Below the pieces are notes generated by a model that was not told the origin of the DNA, ran no database searches, and was given only the letters and a program-made list of their open reading frames with translations. The position numbers were made by a program, and so were the translations under genes. From positions 186,001-250,000 of the forward strand of contig NZ_JAUPED010000002.1 in assembly GCF_030552475.1 (NCBI RefSeq): a stretch of DNA of 64,000 bases, written 5' to 3'. This stretch comes from Mariniflexile sp. AS56. GTDB lineage: Bacteria; Bacteroidota; Bacteroidia; Flavobacteriales; Flavobacteriaceae. Shown here one piece after another: positions 10,242-23,271 of this stretch. Each line of letters starts with the position of its first letter. Position 1 is the stretch's first letter.

Positions 10242-12803
10242 TTAAAGGGGGAAATTTTGATTAACCAATTGTTTTTGTTGGTACACATGATTGAAATAGG
10301 TGTTTGAAACAGACAAAGACATTTCATGCAATAAATCGCTTAATTCAGCCAAAGCATCATCTAGTTCTTGTCTAATAATCCCATCAGTATCTAATTCTAA
10401 AAGAGAATCCATCTTCAAACTTCTAATTTTAAAATTGGCTTCTGAAATGAATTTTTGACATTCGGTAGCTTTCCCTGTAACTTCAGAATGTGGTAATCTG
10501 TCAATATCTTTTTGAATGCGCCTTAGTTGATAGGTGAGTGATTTTGGGTATTCTTTATCTAATAAAATAAGATTTATTACATTTTCAATACTTAAATACG
10601 ACCTGTAACTGTAGCGGTAAATATTTAAGCTTTCATGACTGTTTAATACAGCTTCCAAAATCTCGTATTGTGTGTGCTCTTTATGATTCATCACTAAAAG
10701 AGAACGACATTTGGCTATATTCATGGTCGCTTGTTCGGTTTGTAAACCTATAAAATATAGCAGTAAGCCTTGTTCAACCAAAATGCTTTCTTCGATAAGG
10801 CCCATAAAAGCAATAAGTCTGGTAATAATACGGTCTAATAATTTGATAAGGGCAGCGGTAGACTTTTTGTCGTCTGCTTCCTCAAACTGTTTCCAAATTT
10901 TTTGAATACCATCAAAAACACGCCACATGTCTTTAGACCATAAGTTTCGCAGTGAGAAGTATGAATTATTAAAACTGGAAAGTGTCTGCGCAAAGCTTCC
11001 CATGCGATTCCCATCAATAATAAGCGAGCGAATTTCTTTTAAAGGATTTTTTAAGGCTGCTTCGCCTTCTTCACCTATAAAACCAGGAAAAGTGGACGTA
11101 ATATTTGTAACCGATTGAAACAAATTAAGCAAACTCTCAGACTGTGTTTTTTGTTTATTATACTGCTCGTTACTCATTTTATTGAGCACGGTACGTAAAA
11201 ATCGAGCGGTCACTAGGGCTCTGCCTAAATACCTTCCAGACCAATATAGGTTTTCGGCGGTATTACTAGGTAAATCGTTAATGCCTGAAATGGAAATTCT
11301 ACAGGTACTGTCCCATGAATAATTTTGAATATGGGTTTGTGGATTGTCTGTAACAATCCAGAAATCCTTACTCACACCACCACGTTGGTTGGATACAAAT
11401 AAGTTTTCACGTTCTGCAGCAACGCGTACTAAACCTCCAGGCATGACCGAATAGCCATCTTTGTGTGCAATAGAAAAGGTTCTGCACATCACTTTACGGG
11501 GTTCTAGCTTGCCATTTACAAAATCGGGGGCTGTAGAAAATGATATTTTTTCTTGCGCTACAAAAACAAAAGGGTTAGAAAGAATTTCCTTTTTTAAGGA
11601 TTCTAACTCACTTGGTTTTAAAAATTCACAGAAAAAGATGCTTTCTCTATTTGATCGGTCTATTCGTTTTACAACCAAATTAGTTAGGTTGTTTAAAACA
11701 TAGGCGCGTTCTTTTTTTTGTCCGCACCACCAGGATGCAATTTGTGGCAAGATTAAATCTTCCTTAAAAAAGTATTTACAAATAACGTTCATAAACGGGA
11801 TAAGCCCAGAATTTTCTAAAACGCCACTACCTATTGGGTTTACAATGGCTACTTTCTGTTCTCTTACAACGTCCAATAAACCAGCAACACCTAAGTAGGA
11901 GTCTTCACGAAGCTCTAAAGGATCCATAAACACATCATCCACTCGTCTTAAAATCACATCGACTTGTTTCAGTTCTTTTAAAGATTTCATCCAAACTTTA
12001 CCGCTTCTAACCACCAAATCGTTCCCTGTAACTAATGGATACCCCAAAAATGAAGACATGTAAGCGTGTTCAAAATAGGTTTCATTTAAAGGACCTGGTG
12101 TTAATATTACAATGGTGGGGTTGTCTTTATTTTGAGGTGCCGACTCAATAAGCATTTGATTAAATTCATAAAAGAAATGCGTAGGCTGTTTAACATGGAT
12201 ATCTTTAAAAACATCTGGTAAAACACGGCTCGTCGAAAACCTATTTTCTAAAGCATAGCCCATGCCCGAAGGCGCTTGGGTTCTATCATTCACCACCCAC
12301 ATGCGTCCATCAGGACCACGTGCTAAATCGGCTGAATAAATTAATAGATTTTTTGCTGTTTTATATTGAATTTGGTCACATTGTCTTAAAAAACCACGGT
12401 GTGCATAAATAACTTCAGGCGGAATGATGCCGTTTTTTATAAGCTCGCGCTCTCCATAAATATCTTTCAATATCAGATTTAATAATTCTGAACGTTGTTT
12501 GATACCTTTTTCAATCGTTTCCCATTCTTTTTGATGAACAAGAAAAGGCACAATGTTTAGATCCCAGGTGCGATGCATGCCTTTGGGGTCGTTATAAACA
12601 TTGTACGTGACACCGTTTTCATCCATTAACCAATCAATCTCATTTTGCTTTGAGATTAAGGTTTCGGCTCCTATTTCGGTTAAATTACTTAGTAATTTGT
12701 CCCAATTAGGATTTACAGACATATTAGATTTCAATACTTCATCATAATTACTTTCAGCAGAAAAGTAGTTTTTAAAAAGGGTGTTTTTATCGATCAGCAT
12801 CAA
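10242..12803 (-). CDS. circularly permuted ATP-grasp ligase fused to alpha-E domain (operon gene 2)
   Basis: An 853-residue fusion. Residues about 70-490 form a circularly permuted ATP-grasp of the COG2308 type, with VLTPGPLNETYFEHAYMSSF, then GNDLVVRSGKVWMK, a VILRRVDDVFMDPLEL stretch and NPIGSGVLENSGLIPF, all conserved in the family. Residues about 515-835 are a mostly helical alpha-E domain (opening ENLYWSGRYLGRA). In many proteobacteria these are two adjacent genes; here they are one polypeptide. ATP-grasp enzymes join a carboxylate to an amine through an acyl-phosphate; alpha-E is a helical partner of unknown action. Cytoplasmic, no signal peptide. Spaced 4 nt from gene 1 and 2 nt from gene 3. 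Substrates and product are unknown. Confidence 0.88.
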   Translation of the reverse strand: MMLIDKNTLFKNYFSAESNYDEVLKSNMSVNPNWDKLLSNLTEIGAETLISKQNEIDWLMDENGVTYNVYNDPKGMHRTWDLNIVPFLVHQKEWETIEKGIKQRSELLNLILKDIYGERELIKNGIIPPEVIYAHRGFLRQCDQIQYKTAKNLLIYSADLARGPDGRMWVVNDRTQAPSGMGYALENRFSTSRVLPDVFKDIHVKQPTHFFYEFNQMLIESAPQNKDNPTIVILTPGPLNETYFEHAYMSSFLGYPLVTGNDLVVRSGKVWMKSLKELKQVDVILRRVDDVFMDPLELREDSYLGVAGLLDVVREQKVAIVNPIGSGVLENSGLIPFMNVICKYFFKEDLILPQIASWWCGQKKERAYVLNNLTNLVVKRIDRSNRESIFFCEFLKPSELESLKKEILSNPFVFVAQEKISFSTAPDFVNGKLEPRKVMCRTFSIAHKDGYSVMPGGLVRVAAERENLFVSNQRGGVSKDFWIVTDNPQTHIQNYSWDSTCRISISGINDLPSNTAENLYWSGRYLGRALVTARFLRTVLNKMSNEQYNKQKTQSESLLNLFQSVTNITSTFPGFIGEEGEAALKNPLKEIRSLIIDGNRMGSFAQTLSSFNNSYFSLRNLWSKDMWRVFDGIQKIWKQFEEADDKKSTAALIKLLDRIITRLIAFMGLIEESILVEQGLLLYFIGLQTEQATMNIAKCRSLLVMNHKEHTQYEILEAVLNSHESLNIYRYSYRSYLSIENVINLILLDKEYPKSLTYQLRRIQKDIDRLPHSEVTGKATECQKFISEANFKIRSLKMDSLLELDTDGIIRQELDDALAELSDLLHEMSLSVSNTYFNHVYQQKQLVNQNFPL

Positions 12804-12807
12804 TCAT

Positions 12808-15800
12808 TTATTTTTTTCTGAGATCTAAGGTATAAGGAAATTCGAAATTAATTGGTAATTCTTTGTATTTAAATTTTTTGGTGCTATCAAGTTTTTGAAC
12901 ATTCTTGCTAGAGTTGTTATCATCTTGTGATATTTGTTCGACATCGAACACGTCACCTTGAGTGTGACCTTGCTCCCAAAAACGGTTAATTCGTCTTGAT
13001 TCGGCTTCATAACTATTCACAGGATAGGTTTCGTACGAACGACCACCAGGATGCGCCACAAAATAGGTGCAGCCACCAATGGAGTGTTTGTTCCAGGTAT
13101 CAATAATATCAAAAACTAAAGGCGTATCAACATCAATAGTAGGGTGAAGGGAGGAATGCGGGTTCCAAGCTTTATAACGGATACTCGCCACATATTCACC
13201 CTTAACACCGGTATTATTAAGGTGTACTTTAACGCCATTACACGCAAGCACATAACGTTCTTCAGTAAAATGTGAGACTTTCACTTGAACACGTTCTACG
13301 GAAGAATCGACATATCGGGCAGTTCCACCACCAGTCATTTCTTCACCCAAAACATTCCAAGGTTCAATAGCCGCACGCAATTCTAAATGGATATTGTTTA
13401 TTTCAACCATTCCATGAAGTGGAAACCTAAATTCGAAAAACGGGTTAAACCAATCTTCTTTAAATGGATAGCCAGCCTTGTTAAGTTGCGTTACAATGTC
13501 CTTAATATCTTCTCGAACATAATGTTCTGTTAGAAATTTATCATGTAATTCGGTGCCCCAACGTACTAAATTATGCTCGTAAGGTTTTTTCCAGAACCAA
13601 GAAACCAAGGTTCTAACCAACAAGTTTTGCATTAAGCTCATTTGCGGGTGTGGTGGCATATCAAAAGCACGTAATTCTAAAATACCTAATCGTCCAGAAG
13701 AAGAATCTGGTGAATATAGTTTATCTATACAGAATTCTGAACGGTGCGTATTTCCTGTTAAATCGGTTAATAAATGGCGGAATAATCTATCAGTTAACCA
13801 AAAAGGGACTTCACCGTTTTTCGGTATTTGACTGAAAGCAATTTCCAACTCGTATAAATTTTCCATGCGCGCTTCATCTATACGAGGCGCCTGACTGGTA
13901 GCACCAATAAAGGCACCAGAAAATAAATAGGAAAGTCCAGGATGGTGTTGCCAAAAGGTTAATAAACTACGCAATAAACTAGGTTTACGTAACAAGGGAC
14001 TATCAGCAGGGGTAACGCCACCTAAGGTAACGTGGTTACCGCCACCAGTACCTGTATGTTTACCATCAAGCATGAATTTTTCAGTACCCAATCGCGATTC
14101 TTTCGCAAGTCTATATAAGGTTAAAGTATTGTTTGTTAGTTCTTCCCAGTTTTTAGCAGGTTGTACATTCACTTCTATGACACCTGGGTCTGGCGTTACT
14201 TTAAGCGATTCTAAACGGTTGTCTTTAGGTGGGTCGTAACCCTCTAAAATAACAGGGATGTTCAGTTCTTTTGCAGTAGCTTCAATGGATGCTATTAAAT
14301 CTAAAAATATTTCTGCCGTATCTAAAGGTGGTAAAAATAAGTGTAGTTTACCCTCTCTAATTTCGGCGCATAACCCAGTGCGAATAAAATAATTAATATT
14401 ATTTTCATAAATACCTTGCTCACTAACCTCTTTAAAACGTCGTGACACTCTATTTTTAAAACTAGGAAGCTTTTTCTTTTTAGAGAAATTATCGGGTTCA
14501 TGTCGAGGGAATTCACCGTGTTCTGGCTTTCTTATAAGGGAGTCTAGCGGTAAACGTAGTCCAATAGGCGAGTTACCTGGAATTAAAAACAGATGGTTAC
14601 GTCTAAAACTCCAATCAGAGGTATACCAGATGTTTTGTGAATTATTTAAAGGTAGAACATAACCAACAGCTTTCGATTTTCCGTCGTTTAGAAGTTGTTT
14701 TAATTTGTTTTTCACCAATAAAGCACCATCATCCTTGGTAGGATCGATGTCTACAGGCAATTTTCCTTCTTCCCAAATAAAGTAAAAAGCATCTTCATAG
14801 GTTGGGATGATATGTCTATTCGTGACACCTAAATAGGTAGTTAAGGTGTTTAAAAAGAGCTTGTCGGCATCTTCAGGTAGTGGCGGATTGTCTGAAAATA
14901 AAGAAAGTAACTCTTTATTGTGCCAAATTTTTTTTCCATCCTTTCGCCAGCATATTTCAATAGACCAACGCGGAAGTGGTTCCCCAGGGTACCATTTCCC
15001 TTGGGCTTGATGCAAAATACCACCGTTACTAAATTCATCATATAATTTAGCAGATAGGTTTTTTGCCAATTCGCGTTTGTGTGGACCATCGGCATCGGTA
15101 TTCCATTCGGGCGATTCCATATCATCTATAGAAACAAAAGTGGGTTCACCCCCCATGGTTAACCTCACATCGCGTTTTTCTAGTTCTTTTTCTACTTTAA
15201 AACCGAGGTTATAAATTTCATCCCACTGCTCTTCAGTATATGGCTTGGTAACACGAGGCGATTCGAAAATACGTTTTACTGAGTTCTCAAAAAAGAATTC
15301 GGTTTCGCAAACATCACTCATACCCGAAACAGGTGCAGCACTTTCAAAAGAAGGTGTACAGGCTAATGGAATATGCCCTTCGCCAGCTAATAAACCGGAA
15401 GTTGCATCAAAACCGATCCAACCAGCTCCCGGAAGATAAACTTCCGCCCAAGCATGTAAATCCGTAAAATCTTCTTCAGGACCAGAAGGACCATCCAAGG
15501 ATTTTTCATCGGATTTTAATTGCACTAAATATCCAGACACAAAACGGGCTCCAAAGCCTAAATGGCGTAACGCCTGTACAAATAACCAAGCGTAATCACG
15601 ACACGAGCCACTTTTAAGCTTTAAGGTTTCTTCACACTTTTGAACGCCTGGGTCTAAGCGTATATTGTACTTTAAATATTCATATATTTTTTTATTAATG
15701 TCTATTAGAAAATAGATGGTTTTTCGAGGTGTTTTATCAATAGACCTTACGAAATCTTGTAATAATTCACCGTTTTCAGTGATTTCTAAATAAGGTAGAA

Positions 15801-16140
15801 GTTCCTTTTTTGTAGTAACATCGTACTTAAAAGGAATTTCTTCAGCATACTCTTCAACAAAAAAATCGAAGGGATTTATGGTTTTTAAATCGGCTATAAT
15901 TTCAACTTCAATAGATAATTCCTTTGTTTTCTCCGGAAAAATTAAACGCGCCATATAGTTTCCAAATGGGTCTTGTTGCCAATTAAAAAACTGATTTTCG
16001 GGTTTTATTTTTATGGAATACGCTTCTATAGGGGTTCTGCTATGTGGAGCAGGGCGTAATCTGAAAATGTGTGGAGATAATGATACTGAACGATCGTATT
16101 TGTATTGTGTTTTGTGTGAAATTACAATTTTTAAAGCCAT
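12808..16140 (-). CDS. transglutaminase-DUF2126 (putative amidoligase) fusion (operon gene 1)
   Basis: A 1110-residue two-part protein. Residues 1-290 are a transglutaminase-like domain with its own N-terminal beta domain (KIVISHKTQYKYD) and a full triad: Cys180 (SGSCRDYAW), His229 (DLHAWAEVY) and Asp245 (GWIGFDATSG). From about residue 315 comes DUF2126, opening RDVRLTMGGEPTFVSIDD and containing EPLPRWSIEICWRKDG, GTGGGNHVTLGG and RAFDMPPHPQMSL. From memory, DUF2126 is described as a putative amidoligase with glutamine-synthetase-like fold found almost always with such transglutaminases. The length is normal for this fusion. It is first in a tightly packed operon and follows a 318-bp region with a TAnnTTTG-type promoter element. 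Confidence 0.88.
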   Translation of the reverse strand: MALKIVISHKTQYKYDRSVSLSPHIFRLRPAPHSRTPIEAYSIKIKPENQFFNWQQDPFGNYMARLIFPEKTKELSIEVEIIADLKTINPFDFFVEEYAEEIPFKYDVTTKKELLPYLEITENGELLQDFVRSIDKTPRKTIYFLIDINKKIYEYLKYNIRLDPGVQKCEETLKLKSGSCRDYAWLFVQALRHLGFGARFVSGYLVQLKSDEKSLDGPSGPEEDFTDLHAWAEVYLPGAGWIGFDATSGLLAGEGHIPLACTPSFESAAPVSGMSDVCETEFFFENSVKRIFESPRVTKPYTEEQWDEIYNLGFKVEKELEKRDVRLTMGGEPTFVSIDDMESPEWNTDADGPHKRELAKNLSAKLYDEFSNGGILHQAQGKWYPGEPLPRWSIEICWRKDGKKIWHNKELLSLFSDNPPLPEDADKLFLNTLTTYLGVTNRHIIPTYEDAFYFIWEEGKLPVDIDPTKDDGALLVKNKLKQLLNDGKSKAVGYVLPLNNSQNIWYTSDWSFRRNHLFLIPGNSPIGLRLPLDSLIRKPEHGEFPRHEPDNFSKKKKLPSFKNRVSRRFKEVSEQGIYENNINYFIRTGLCAEIREGKLHLFLPPLDTAEIFLDLIASIEATAKELNIPVILEGYDPPKDNRLESLKVTPDPGVIEVNVQPAKNWEELTNNTLTLYRLAKESRLGTEKFMLDGKHTGTGGGNHVTLGGVTPADSPLLRKPSLLRSLLTFWQHHPGLSYLFSGAFIGATSQAPRIDEARMENLYELEIAFSQIPKNGEVPFWLTDRLFRHLLTDLTGNTHRSEFCIDKLYSPDSSSGRLGILELRAFDMPPHPQMSLMQNLLVRTLVSWFWKKPYEHNLVRWGTELHDKFLTEHYVREDIKDIVTQLNKAGYPFKEDWFNPFFEFRFPLHGMVEINNIHLELRAAIEPWNVLGEEMTGGGTARYVDSSVERVQVKVSHFTEERYVLACNGVKVHLNNTGVKGEYVASIRYKAWNPHSSLHPTIDVDTPLVFDIIDTWNKHSIGGCTYFVAHPGGRSYETYPVNSYEAESRRINRFWEQGHTQGDVFDVEQISQDDNNSSKNVQKLDSTKKFKYKELPINFEFPYTLDLRKK

Positions 16141-18668: not shown

Positions 18669-20078
18669 ATGGGAATCCCTCTACAATTTCTTAAATCTAT
18701 TCGAGTAAAGAGAATACTGTCTATCATTATTTTTGCTTCTATAGTGGTTATTCTCTTATTGGCATACTTTTTTCTGGAACAGAAAATTAGTACAGATAGT
18801 CTTGTTTTAATTTTATTTGGGTTTGGAATCGTTCAGGTTTTTGTTCTTCAATATTTTTTTAAAAACCAATTAAAGAATGAAGTTAGGCATTCAAACTTAA
18901 AAAATAGACTTAGAGAGTTACAAGCGAGTAATGAAGATATTGTAAAGCGTGCAGATTTTAGATCGGTTTATTTAGCGAATATGAGTTATGAAATTCGCAC
19001 ACCACTAAGTACGGTATTGGGTATGTTGAATATGCTAAAGCAAACGGAGTTAGACTCTGATCAAAATGCGCAAGTGGAGATTGCGGAGTATTCTTCCAAC
19101 CATTTATTGCAATTAGTTAAAATGGTAACAGACAATGCTGATGTAGATCGAGGTGATGTTGAATTGAATAACCATGTTATTGATTTAAAAACAGATTTAT
19201 TGCATTTATTTAAAGTTTTTGAATACCAAGCTTGGGAAAAAGGTCTGGAATTTGAATATAAATTTTTAATTGAAGGCAAACGTAAATTTTCAGTTATAGG
19301 AGACTCAGTACGCATACAACAGGTTTTAATAAACTTGATTAACAATGCTATTAAGTTCACTAATTCGGGGAAAATATCGGTAATTGTAGATCAAACCGTT
19401 AATATTGACGACGACCAAATTGTTACCTTCTATATTAAAGATACAGGAATAGGCTTGCGTTTAGATGAAATTAAACAAATATTTAATGAATCGAAAACCT
19501 TTAATATACCTGCGGGCAAAGATTATAGAGGTGGTGGTATTGGCTTATCTATTTCGCATCAACTTGTAAAAATAATGGGTGGTGAACTGAAATTGGAAAG
19601 TAAGGAAAATGAAGGGTCTACCTTTTATTTTAGCTTGTCTTTAAAGAAAACGCTTAATGTTAAAGCAGAAGCCGAATTTCAAGAGCCTATTTTACAAGAG
19701 AAATTTAATGTTTTGGTGGCAGAAGATAATAGAATGAACCAAAAAGTAATTAAGTTCTTATTAGAGCAACAAGGTGCCGATTGTACCTTTGCGAAAAATG
19801 GTTTAGAAGCTGTGGAGTTATATAAAATTCTAGATTTCGATATGATTTTCATGGATATCTATATGCCCGATATGGATGGTTATCAAGCAACACAAGCCAT
19901 AAAAGAAACAGAGAAATACTTAGAAAATAACACACCTATTATCGCTGTGTCAGCAAGTGCTTTTGAAGCAGATATTGCAAAGGCAAAATTAGCAGGTATA
20001 GACGATTTTTTAGCCAAACCGTTAGAAGCTAGTATACTCAAAGAATTATTGTCGAAATACTCAAATAAGGAAGCTTAA
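18669..20078 (+). CDS. hybrid sensor histidine kinase-response regulator with degenerate H-box (His to Tyr)
   Basis: A 469-residue membrane protein: two transmembrane helices (about 16-36 and 44-63) with almost no periplasmic loop, a coiled linker (65-95), a DHp domain, an HATPase domain and a C-terminal receiver. The H-box reads NMSYEIRTPLS (104-114): the phosphoacceptor His is Tyr107 (codon TAT at 18987-18989). The ATPase keeps its N box (LINLINNAIKF, 220-230), G1 box (DTGIG, 258-262) and G2 box (GGGIGLS, 288-294). The receiver keeps Glu352/Asp353, phosphoacceptor Asp396 (MDIYMPDMDG) and Lys450. So ATP binding and receiver look functional while autophosphorylation on His cannot occur in the usual way. 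Its signal and partners are unknown; no response-regulator gene is adjacent. Confidence 0.88.
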   Translation: MGIPLQFLKSIRVKRILSIIIFASIVVILLLAYFFLEQKISTDSLVLILFGFGIVQVFVLQYFFKNQLKNEVRHSNLKNRLRELQASNEDIVKRADFRSVYLANMSYEIRTPLSTVLGMLNMLKQTELDSDQNAQVEIAEYSSNHLLQLVKMVTDNADVDRGDVELNNHVIDLKTDLLHLFKVFEYQAWEKGLEFEYKFLIEGKRKFSVIGDSVRIQQVLINLINNAIKFTNSGKISVIVDQTVNIDDDQIVTFYIKDTGIGLRLDEIKQIFNESKTFNIPAGKDYRGGGIGLSISHQLVKIMGGELKLESKENEGSTFYFSLSLKKTLNVKAEAEFQEPILQEKFNVLVAEDNRMNQKVIKFLLEQQGADCTFAKNGLEAVELYKILDFDMIFMDIYMPDMDGYQATQAIKETEKYLENNTPIIAVSASAFEADIAKAKLAGIDDFLAKPLEASILKELLSKYSNKEA

Positions 20079-20093
20079 GAAGTATGTTGTGTA

Positions 20094-20474
20094 CTACTTA
20101 ATGGCTATCACGCTAATTTCAACGTTTACATTTTTTGGTAAACGGGCTACTTGTACTGTTTCTCGTGCAGGAGCCGTAGCTTCATCAAAATAACTTCCAT
20201 AAACAGAATTTATCAGTGCAAAGTCATCCATATTACTAATGAAGATGGACGATTTAATCACGTTCTCAAAAGTCATGTCTGCAGCTTCTAAAACAGCTTT
20301 TAAATTAGCCATTACTTGCTGCGTTTCCGTTTCGATATCATCTAAAACAAGCGCTCCAGTTGCTGGATTGATAGCAATTTGACCAGAAGTATATAAGGTG
20401 TTTCCGCTTAAAATAGCTTGGTTGTAAGGACCAATAGGAGCAGGAGCGTTTGGTGTCGTGATAATTTTTTTCAT
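20094..20474 (-). CDS. ridA: RidA family enamine/imine deaminase
   Basis: A 126-residue protein of the YjgF/YER057c/RidA family, which hydrolyses reactive 2-aminoacrylate and related enamines released by PLP enzymes such as threonine dehydratase. It shows IGPYNQAILSGNTLYTSGQI near the N-terminus, the family's substrate-site region, and the signature ARETVQVARLPKNVNVEISV with the conserved Arg that binds the carboxylate. The start at 20474 (MKKIITTPNAPAPIGPY) matches family length; an ATG 24 nt upstream gives an extra MLTKHNTV with no family support. It is followed 3' by the convergent hybrid kinase and lies 35 nt after lptD on the same strand. Confidence 0.9.
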   Translation of the reverse strand: MKKIITTPNAPAPIGPYNQAILSGNTLYTSGQIAINPATGALVLDDIETETQQVMANLKAVLEAADMTFENVIKSSIFISNMDDFALINSVYGSYFDEATAPARETVQVARLPKNVNVEISVIAIK

Positions 20475-20509
20475 AACGGTGTTGTGTTTAGTTAACAATT
20501 AACAAATCG

Positions 20510-23215
20510 CTAAAGTTGTAAATCGGCTTGATTTCGTTTTTCGTATTTTAAATCTTTTAACATATTCGATTTAATACCAATAAAGAAATTCCATGAACTT
20601 CTGGTACTAAAAGGAACCCAGCTAAAATTCATACGCCAACTCATTAAATCGCGTTCAAAACGCAATTGTGTATAGGTGAACCCCGCATCCTTTAAATCGT
20701 AACCAGATGATGCTCCAATAGACCATTTATCTGATAATTTAATATCACCTGAAAACATAAGTGAATGGGATGATATTTCATTTTGTCGTGTGGAGTTGGA
20801 GTAATTAACGGCATAGGCAATACGTAAATTCCAAGGGATGCTAAAGTGATAAAACTCACTTGGTTTTTCTTCTTTATCGTCTTCTTCCTCGTTATTTATT
20901 TGCTGGTTTGCAAAATCTTCCGAGATACCAAACAAGTCATCGTCTCGTCCACCACTTCGTTTATTCTCTTCAATCCCTCGTTTATTATCGTTTGCTTTCC
21001 CAGATTTGCTAGATAACGACCAGCTAGTGGTTAGGTTAGCACTTGTTAGCCTGAAAAGACTTCCTCCGTTATCAACATTGAAGGTGTTAATTCGTTTATT
21101 GTTATTATCTAAAGCATACGGGTCTAAAGTAGCTCCAAAGTTAACACTCATCTTATTATTGAAAAGTTGTGTACCACCACTCATTCTAACAGGACTCCAC
21201 TGTAACGAATCGCCAGCAACATTATAAGAGGTTGAAAAGTTTAAATTGTTTAATAAAATGATTTTTTTAGCTTCGGTAGCCGTACTATCTCTGTCACGTA
21301 CTTTGGCTTCAAGATTATTAGAAACCGAAATGCCTACAGAACTAGAATAATTATTTCCTGGCGACCCAAAGATACCTTCTTCAAAACGGGTATATTCTAC
21401 GTCACTTGTTGTCAATCCGTCGGCACTAACAACTTCGTAACTGTCGTAATATTTATCGAATGCAGGGTTGATATTGTAGCTTAAAGACGGACGTATAACA
21501 TGGCGAATGGCTTTTAGTTTGGCATCCTTACCTTCTTTTTCAAAATTAAACATACCATAAATAGTCGTTCCTAAACTGGTGCTAAAATTGTAAGTTCTGT
21601 AAGAGTCAAAACCATTTACATCTTCCGTTATTACCTCTCTTTCTACAGGGTCAAACGATTTTTCAATAGTTTTAAAAGTCCAAACTTCACTAAAGTTACT
21701 ACTAGCGCTTAAACTAAAGTATTTAAATAATTTAAAGTTGGTAGTAAGTGGGATGGTATGTTGAAAACCTGCTTTCGCATCTTCAAACATTTCTTTTTTA
21801 AAGAAAAGTGAATCGGTGGTACTAATTCTGTTTTCTCCTCTTACACTGTACTGCAAGTTAATATTTTGAATGATGCCCTTTTTAGTTCCTGTTTTTGATG
21901 CAAAAGGATATATTCTACCAATGCTTCCTTGAAAGGTAGGCAAGGTCATATTAATTTGTTGCGTATTGGTGTTTTGTGAATGGGTCGCTGTTAAACTGAA
22001 ACTAGGTTGTAACTCACCTTGAAACGTTTTGGAATAAGATACGGAAGAGGATAGCGTGTTATTTAAAAACGCCCCCGTATTTATTTGATTTACCGATGTT
22101 TGATAATACGAACTACTACCTAAGTTAACAGATGCTGAAAATCGCGAATTAGGGTTTGCTTTAGTGTCTTGGCTGTGTGACCAACGTAAATTGTATACCG
22201 TAGATTTTGAGTAATCAGGAAAACCTAGTTCACTACTAATTAAACTTTCGTACCTAAAACCTAAGTTACCTCTAAACTTATAACGCTTCGCATAGGTGCT
22301 TTCTAGGTTCATACCATAACTTCCGTTGGTATAATAATCACCTAAAACGGCTAAATCAACATAATCATTAATAGCTAAATAATACCCACCATTTTGTAAA
22401 AAGTAACCACGTTCGTTTTGTTCACCAAAACTAGGAATTATAATACCCGATGTTTGCTTATCCGATTGCGGGAAAAAGCTAAAGGGCAACCAAACGGGGG
22501 TTGGAATATCATAAATATACAATCCAGCAGCGCCTGTTACTATTTTCTTTCCTGGTACAATTTTGGCTTTTAATAAACGGATGTAATATTCAGGATCTTC
22601 TAAATCTTCTGCAGTTGTGTATTTCGCATTCTTTAAAAAGTAAACGGAATCGTTTTCTTTTTTAGTAAGTTGTGCCACAATAGTTCCATCACCTTGTTCG
22701 GTTTTAGAGTTGTATATAAGTGCTTTTTTAGTTTGTGTATTAAAAAGAATGGAATCGGGTTCTACCACATTGGAACCTTGTGTGAAAACAGGTTTTTGTG
22801 AATACGTACCAAGAGAATCGGTAATGCCTTTAGCATACACGGTGTTTTTTGTGTAATCGATGGTGATGTTACCAGCAGCAATATTCATGTCGCCATATTC
22901 TATTGTGGCTTCATTACGAAGGTATAATTTATGTTCTTTTTGGTTGAACGTCGTATAATCTGTCGCGTGGTATTTTACTGTATTTTCTAAAAGTTCTTTT
23001 TTGCGTTTCGGCTTGATGGAATCTTTTAAAATCGAATCTTGTGCCTTTTCAGAAGTCTTAGAAATGAGTAAACTATCGGTACTAACAACAAGACTGTCAC
23101 TAACAGATCTGTCAATAGAAATACCGCTTTTCGGGGTGTCTTGTGCATAGCTTAACATGTTAATAAACATTGTAAAACTTAGTGCAAAAAGTATTTTAAA
23201 GTTGTTTGTGTGCAA
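20510..23215 (-). CDS. lptD: LPS-assembly outer-membrane protein LptD
   Basis: An approximately 900-residue outer-membrane protein. After the signal peptide (FKILFALSFTMFINMLSYAQ) and a Ser/Asp-rich linker come the OstA-like periplasmic beta-jellyroll (TVKYHATDYTTFNQKEHKLY, NITIDYTKNTVYAKG), which forms the end of the Lpt bridge, then the long LptD barrel with conserved LPFSFFPQSDKQTSGIIIPSFG. It inserts LPS into the outer leaflet, normally with LptE. The open frame extends to a TTG at 23266, but a -7 promoter element (23264-23271) sits on that codon, so I place the start at the TTG of 23213-23215, which yields a proper signal peptide; ATG at 23170 is another option. Confidence 0.88.
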   Translation of the reverse strand: MHTNNFKILFALSFTMFINMLSYAQDTPKSGISIDRSVSDSLVVSTDSLLISKTSEKAQDSILKDSIKPKRKKELLENTVKYHATDYTTFNQKEHKLYLRNEATIEYGDMNIAAGNITIDYTKNTVYAKGITDSLGTYSQKPVFTQGSNVVEPDSILFNTQTKKALIYNSKTEQGDGTIVAQLTKKENDSVYFLKNAKYTTAEDLEDPEYYIRLLKAKIVPGKKIVTGAAGLYIYDIPTPVWLPFSFFPQSDKQTSGIIIPSFGEQNERGYFLQNGGYYLAINDYVDLAVLGDYYTNGSYGMNLESTYAKRYKFRGNLGFRYESLISSELGFPDYSKSTVYNLRWSHSQDTKANPNSRFSASVNLGSSSYYQTSVNQINTGAFLNNTLSSSVSYSKTFQGELQPSFSLTATHSQNTNTQQINMTLPTFQGSIGRIYPFASKTGTKKGIIQNINLQYSVRGENRISTTDSLFFKKEMFEDAKAGFQHTIPLTTNFKLFKYFSLSASSNFSEVWTFKTIEKSFDPVEREVITEDVNGFDSYRTYNFSTSLGTTIYGMFNFEKEGKDAKLKAIRHVIRPSLSYNINPAFDKYYDSYEVVSADGLTTSDVEYTRFEEGIFGSPGNNYSSSVGISVSNNLEAKVRDRDSTATEAKKIILLNNLNFSTSYNVAGDSLQWSPVRMSGGTQLFNNKMSVNFGATLDPYALDNNNKRINTFNVDNGGSLFRLTSANLTTSWSLSSKSGKANDNKRGIEENKRSGGRDDDLFGISEDFANQQINNEEEDDKEEKPSEFYHFSIPWNLRIAYAVNYSNSTRQNEISSHSLMFSGDIKLSDKWSIGASSGYDLKDAGFTYTQLRFERDLMSWRMNFSWVPFSTRSSWNFFIGIKSNMLKDLKYEKRNQADLQL

Positions 23216-23263
23216 CGCTTTTAAATGTATTTTTGTAAAAGTATGGCTCGATTTTTGAAAAGC

Positions 23264-23271
23264 CAAAATTA
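23264..23271 (-). promoter_or_regulatory. putative -7 element (TAATTTTG) for lptD
   Basis: The minus strand reads TA-AT-TTTG, a full consensus match. It overlaps the most upstream possible lptD start codon, which argues for a start further downstream. A -33 box at normal spacing is not seen. Confidence 0.4.

Follow-up and report, generated by a model that had tools for sequence, protein, structure and literature searches.

Pseudo-histidine kinases are already known: 0.9% of HisKA domains are devoid of the phosphoacceptor His, which phosphotransfer cannot bypass (PMC12632262). The Tyr substitution is also known from DivL, which carries Tyr550, retains the histidine kinase boxes, shows neither kinase nor phosphatase activity, and binds and senses DivK~P; it was called unique in carrying a phosphorylation-site Tyr (PMC4211667). 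A hybrid kinase may also act on another kinase, as does RetS, which takes phosphoryl groups from that kinase, dephosphorylates the latter's receiver and blocks its autophosphorylation (PMC5992135). In HisKA domains, the acidic residue following His is required for kinase activity and T/N at position H+4 for phosphatase activity, while His itself is dispensable for the phosphatase activity of CrdS but not of PleC (PMC3510030). No Tyr-type kinase of Bacteroidota was found in the open-access literature. Within the literature searched, the receiver-bearing, Tyr-fixed and repeatedly converted family described here is new in this phylum, and surveys beyond open access could already list it.

The gene studied here is located in the window, i.e. 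the whole stretch of 64,000 nt from Mariniflexile sp. AS56 that was analyzed (positions below refer to the window). Its features and downstream neighbors are as follows.

18669..20078, + strand: gene for a hybrid pseudo-histidine kinase of 469 aa, with orthologous, syntenic copies elsewhere
18705..18863, + strand: two transmembrane helices, spanning residues ~13-36 and ~43-65 and joined by ~6 residues, from hydropathy and the model
18960..19148, + strand: DHp (HisKA) domain, residues 98-160, from Pfam PF00512 and the model helices
18987..18989, + strand: codon TAT of Tyr107, replacing the phosphoacceptor His
18990..19001, + strand: E108, I109, R110 and T111, with E invariant and T in 62/65 Tyr forms
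19281..19658, + strand: CA (HATPase) domain, residues 205-330, with N222, N226, K229, D258, G260, G262 and G292 invariant in Tyr forms
19458..19532, + strand: ATP lid/F-box segment, residues 264-288, which evolves fast and is degenerate in orthologs of both types, while paralogs have the canonical form
19701..20066, + strand: receiver domain, residues 345-466, with D396 (19854-19856), K450 (20016-20018), E352, D353 and S428
20094-20498, - strand: ridA, conserved downstream neighbor marking the orthologous locus
20510-23266, - strand: lptD-like gene, conserved downstream neighbor marking the orthologous locus

The 469-aa protein has the domain set of an active hybrid histidine kinase, as HisKA (residues 101-155), HATPase_c (211-326) and Response_reg (348-460) each scored above the Pfam cut-off; the receiver is at the C-terminus, and no PAS domain was matched in Pfam. 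In the AlphaFold2 model (mean pLDDT 78), two transmembrane helices joined by a very short loop are followed by a long pair of DHp helices, a CA domain with its fold intact and its lid disordered at 275-288 (pLDDT <50), and the receiver. The top Foldseek matches were the hybrid and classical kinases ShkA, GacS, RetS and HK853, and DivL (4q20) was also listed. An earlier inspection of the DNA, hereafter the sequence-only reading, had noted Tyr in place of His in the H-box, intact N, G1 and G2 boxes with Glu352/Asp353, Asp396 and Lys450, and nearly no periplasmic loop. All of these were borne out: the H-box is NMSYEIRTPLS with TAT at 18987-18989, the listed residues are present, and hydropathy and the model agree on ~6 residues between the transmembrane segments. 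A periplasmic region is kept in one Tyr-type genus (L132 and L134) and in paralogs, and is absent from the other orthologs of both the His and Tyr types. Judging from this distribution, the loss of the sensor and the loss of His in orthologs look like separate events.

The other HisKA domains read in the same genome all have His (29/29). In each of the genus's five other genomes, position 107 is Tyr; the orthologs from two of these genus mates are identical to the ones in named M. fucanivorans and M. gromovii records, in line with placing the window genome in Mariniflexile. Across 84,980 species genomes and 397 family genomes, 84 distinct orthologs were found, 19 of which have the His expected of an active hybrid kinase; the remaining 65, the window protein among them, have Tyr, the residue that defines the acceptor position of the DivL family. 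The sequence-only reading had raised the question of whether the codon recurs in relatives and Tyr is fixed, and the 65 Tyr orthologs answer it in the affirmative: Tyr is encoded by TAT in 44 and by TAC in 21, and Phe was never seen. One genus contributed five more genomes, each of them with Tyr. Across the 62 rows of the main clade (tree length 15.5), Tyr is unchanged against ~15 TAT/TAC switches by parsimony, and 82 of the 392 alignment columns are as constant as residue 107. If the loss of His were neutral, residue 107 would be expected to drift; as no drift was seen, the loss does not appear to be neutral. Tyr H-boxes in other genes were searched for with a strict, degenerate DNA motif that misses variants: 28 of 397 family genomes matched, all within this gene, as did 2 of 395 phylum genomes, again only in this gene.

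The gene order ridA-lptD-amidase is found 3′ of nearly all copies in His and Tyr lineages alike, which indicates that they are true orthologs. On the ortholog tree, which was built without residue 107 and has a His-bearing outgroup, at least three changes at this residue are needed: in the main clade of 62, which includes Mariniflexile, Flavivirga, Algibacter, Tamlana, Seonamhaeicola and others; in a single ortholog, L114, nested inside the His-type Wocania group (support 100/96); and in one deep-branching genus, in which 7/7 genomes have Tyr and the periplasmic region is still longer. A single origin of Tyr was rejected by the AU test, with groups defined once the residue had been seen (p=1e-4), as was the union of the main clade with L114, again with groups picked by the trait (p=1.4e-6). 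The union of the main clade with the deep genus, whose placement is weakly supported, was rejected more weakly (p=0.02). Since the outgroup has His, three His-to-Tyr changes would be the simplest reading, with groups chosen by trait and a direction that parsimony counts alone do not give. No clear sign of gene conversion of Tyr into L114 was found, residues 98-120 being too short to exclude it.

The gene is under strong purifying selection in both types, as whole-gene pairwise dN/dS was 0.02-0.10 in Tyr and His pairs alike. The rate ratio of the CA core to the receiver was 0.89 in the Tyr clade versus 0.90 in the larger His clade, and the bootstrap ranges of the Tyr versus His rate differences in CA, DHp and lid include zero. 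This rate comparison gave no sign that constraint on the kinase core is relaxed once His is gone, and by this measure His is lost without measurable relaxation of DHp or the CA core. N222, N226, K229, D258, G260, G262 and G292 of the ATP site are invariant in the Tyr rows, together with E108 and R110, and the receiver residues of an active hybrid kinase, E352, D353, D396, S428 and K450, are invariant in 84/84 orthologs. The residues of the N, G1 and G2 boxes are conserved; the F-box/lid (about 264-288) is degenerate in His and Tyr orthologs and canonical in paralogs, a point absent from the sequence-only reading. As this degeneracy is shared by both types, the weakening of catalysis seemingly preceded the loss of His, an indication that autokinase activity was by then weak or no longer needed.

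The H+4 position is occupied by T111, a residue of HisKA phosphatases, in the window protein and most Tyr rows; the exceptions are three Tyr-type orthologs with Ile. Among the His orthologs, T111 is found in 7/19 and Ile (HEIRIPL) in 12/19 (L059, L060, L062, L064-L068, L070, L127, L128 and L130). These 12 have kept the acceptor and lost the phosphatase residue, a mirror image of most Tyr forms. The two types also differ at residues 144 and 158 in the second DHp helix (about 19098-19142): E144/K158 is found in 15/19 His forms, and K144 with E or D158 in 35/65 Tyr forms, E144/K158 being retained by L114 and the deep Tyr genus. This charge swap may mark an altered dimer or receiver interface.

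When the genome was searched with this protein, no second kinase or receiver turned up within the window, so that the Tyr107 kinase gene looks like an orphan. Elsewhere in the genome (C10:25974-26312, L183), a stand-alone HPt-like protein of 113 aa with an AHKMKPT motif scored just under the Pfam cut-off. It is a candidate for a shared phosphotransfer hub serving orphan receivers. HPt-like proteins were found in 89 of the 120 sampled family genomes, including 15/15 that carry the locus; being common in the family anyway, this co-occurrence is a lead and not evidence. The window also contains, at 10242-16140 on the - strand, a circularly permuted ATP-grasp/Alpha-E protein adjoining a transglutaminase-DUF2126 protein (putative amidoligase), a pair that is likely a peptide-ligase-type cluster.

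The ortholog comparison shows Tyr in place of the acceptor His across a large clade, at least three changes at one syntenic locus, and purifying selection on DHp, the CA core and the receiver. The fixation of Tyr, the repeated changes and the strong selection elsewhere in the gene make it very likely that the gene encodes a functional pseudokinase and is neither defective nor the product of a sequencing error. We assign a probability of roughly 0.6 to a selectively maintained pseudo-histidine kinase with a DivL-like H-box, whose receiver is charged in trans and whose core serves as a docking scaffold. By two-component chemistry, the absence of the acceptor His leaves no autophosphorylation for His-Asp transfer, so that any phosphorylation of the receiver must have an external source. 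The dimeric DHp-CA core would act as a docking or regulatory scaffold, probably nucleotide-bound, as in DivL. Phosphate would reach the receiver from an HPt protein or a different hybrid kinase and might be removed again by the DHp domain of the same protein via T111. Instead of initiating a relay, the protein would sense the relay's phosphorylation state or buffer it. A point against this reading is that the invariant ATP-site residues and E108 appear to exceed the obvious needs of a pure docking scaffold.

Several alternatives were weighed against this reading. A dedicated phosphatase or phosphate sink would be an enzymatic sub-case of the pseudokinase, in which the DHp domain uses T111 to dephosphorylate its own, and perhaps a partner's, receiver and so drains the relay. 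The prevalence of T111 in Tyr forms (62/65 versus 7/19 in His forms) and the intact receiver are consistent with this role, as is CrdS: its H371A variant is still a phosphatase, giving CrdA~P a half-life of 2.6 min compared with 0.7 min for the wild type and 53.5 min alone, and its phosphatase residue N375 occupies the T/N position (PMC3510030). However, three Tyr-type orthologs have I111, His helps the HisKA phosphatase reaction (PMC7005713), PleC H610A lacks both activities (PMC3510030), DivL is no phosphatase (PMC4211667), and phosphatase activity was argued not to be what His-less HisKA domains generally provide (PMC12632262). We consider a dedicated phosphatase unlikely, though it keeps some weight. 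Among the options offered by the sequence-only reading, the pseudokinase and the receiver fed in trans, which are mutually compatible, fit best because His is not bypassable and the catalytic residues of the receiver are invariant in 65/65 Tyr rows; its phosphatase-only form is possible but not universal, given the three orthologs with Ile111.

The invariant ATP-site residues and the unrelaxed CA core would also suit a donor in a mixed dimer, in which a partner kinase would receive phosphate on its His from the ATP-bound CA domain, and kinase/pseudokinase heterodimers are known from ChrS-HrrS (PMC9491836). This is improbable in view of the degenerate ATP lid and the lack of a close His-bearing paralog in the genome, the next-best histidine kinase being only 35% identical. 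Slightly less probable still is tyrosine autophosphorylation, in which the hydroxyl group of Tyr107 takes the phosphate with a signalling role of its own. To our knowledge, there is no established chemistry by which phospho-Tyr passes its phosphate to a receiver Asp. The Tyr-modifying form in the sequence-only reading is compatible with the strict use of Tyr, never Phe, and with the retention of E108 and the ATP site, but DivL, the precedent with the same substitution, has no autophosphorylation (PMC4211667). A sequencing error, a recent CAT-to-TAT mutation or a decaying pseudogene has practically no likelihood left. All that speaks for it is that one transition suffices for the change, and close relatives that all have His would have pointed to it; the reverse was found, as they all have Tyr. 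It is ruled out by Tyr in many species with synonymous turnover and by the strong purifying selection, and no premature stop was present in the orthologs examined, the single apparent internal stop, in the M. gromovii ortholog, being its natural C-terminal stop. The DivL-like core with a receiver fed in trans is the best reading of these data, with the phosphatase or sink as its sub-case, because His is indispensable for phosphotransfer and DivL is devoid of both activities.

A second Tyr lineage, from a phylum other than that of DivL and with three or more His/Tyr changes and syntenic His orthologs, constitutes a natural replicate series, which lets one ask why Tyr is chosen, what an acceptor-less kinase core does and how the attached receiver is fed. 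We tentatively propose, at somewhat less than even odds, that members of one hybrid kinase family were repeatedly turned, by the same His-to-Tyr change at a single locus, into receiver-bearing pseudokinases, a second and independent solution of the DivL type that would use its trans-charged receiver to read a relay or buffer it. If this repeated conversion is true, the His-type sister proteins are natural before/after pairs; the Wocania His form and the Tyr form nested within that group are an example, open to direct single-residue swap tests.

DivL of Caulobacter and other alphaproteobacteria resembles the window protein in having Tyr at the acceptor position of an otherwise complete HisKA-HATPase core, in Arg at Y+3 and in keeping Tyr in nearly all homologs, and 4q20 was among the sequence matches as well as the fold matches. 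The two differ in phylum and layout: DivL has multiple N-terminal PAS domains and ends with its CA domain, whereas the window protein has a transmembrane hairpin, no PAS domain and a C-terminal receiver. DivL has CckA and DivK as partners and is a weak ATP binder. The kinase core of RetS, which in the RetS/GacS system of Pseudomonas modulates the other kinase instead of starting its own pathway, was also among the top sequence and fold matches; unlike the window protein, RetS is grouped with HisKA structures whose His can be phosphorylated. ShkA (6qrj) was the best fold match across the DHp-CA-receiver layout, with a high sequence match, but its H-box, LATLSHEFRTP, has His where the window protein has Tyr. 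The His-type orthologs of Hyunsoonleella, Jejuia and Wocania share the downstream gene order, the domains and the intact receiver with the window protein at 53-65% identity, and differ from it in His at position 107 and, in 12/19, in Ile at the position of the phosphatase Thr.
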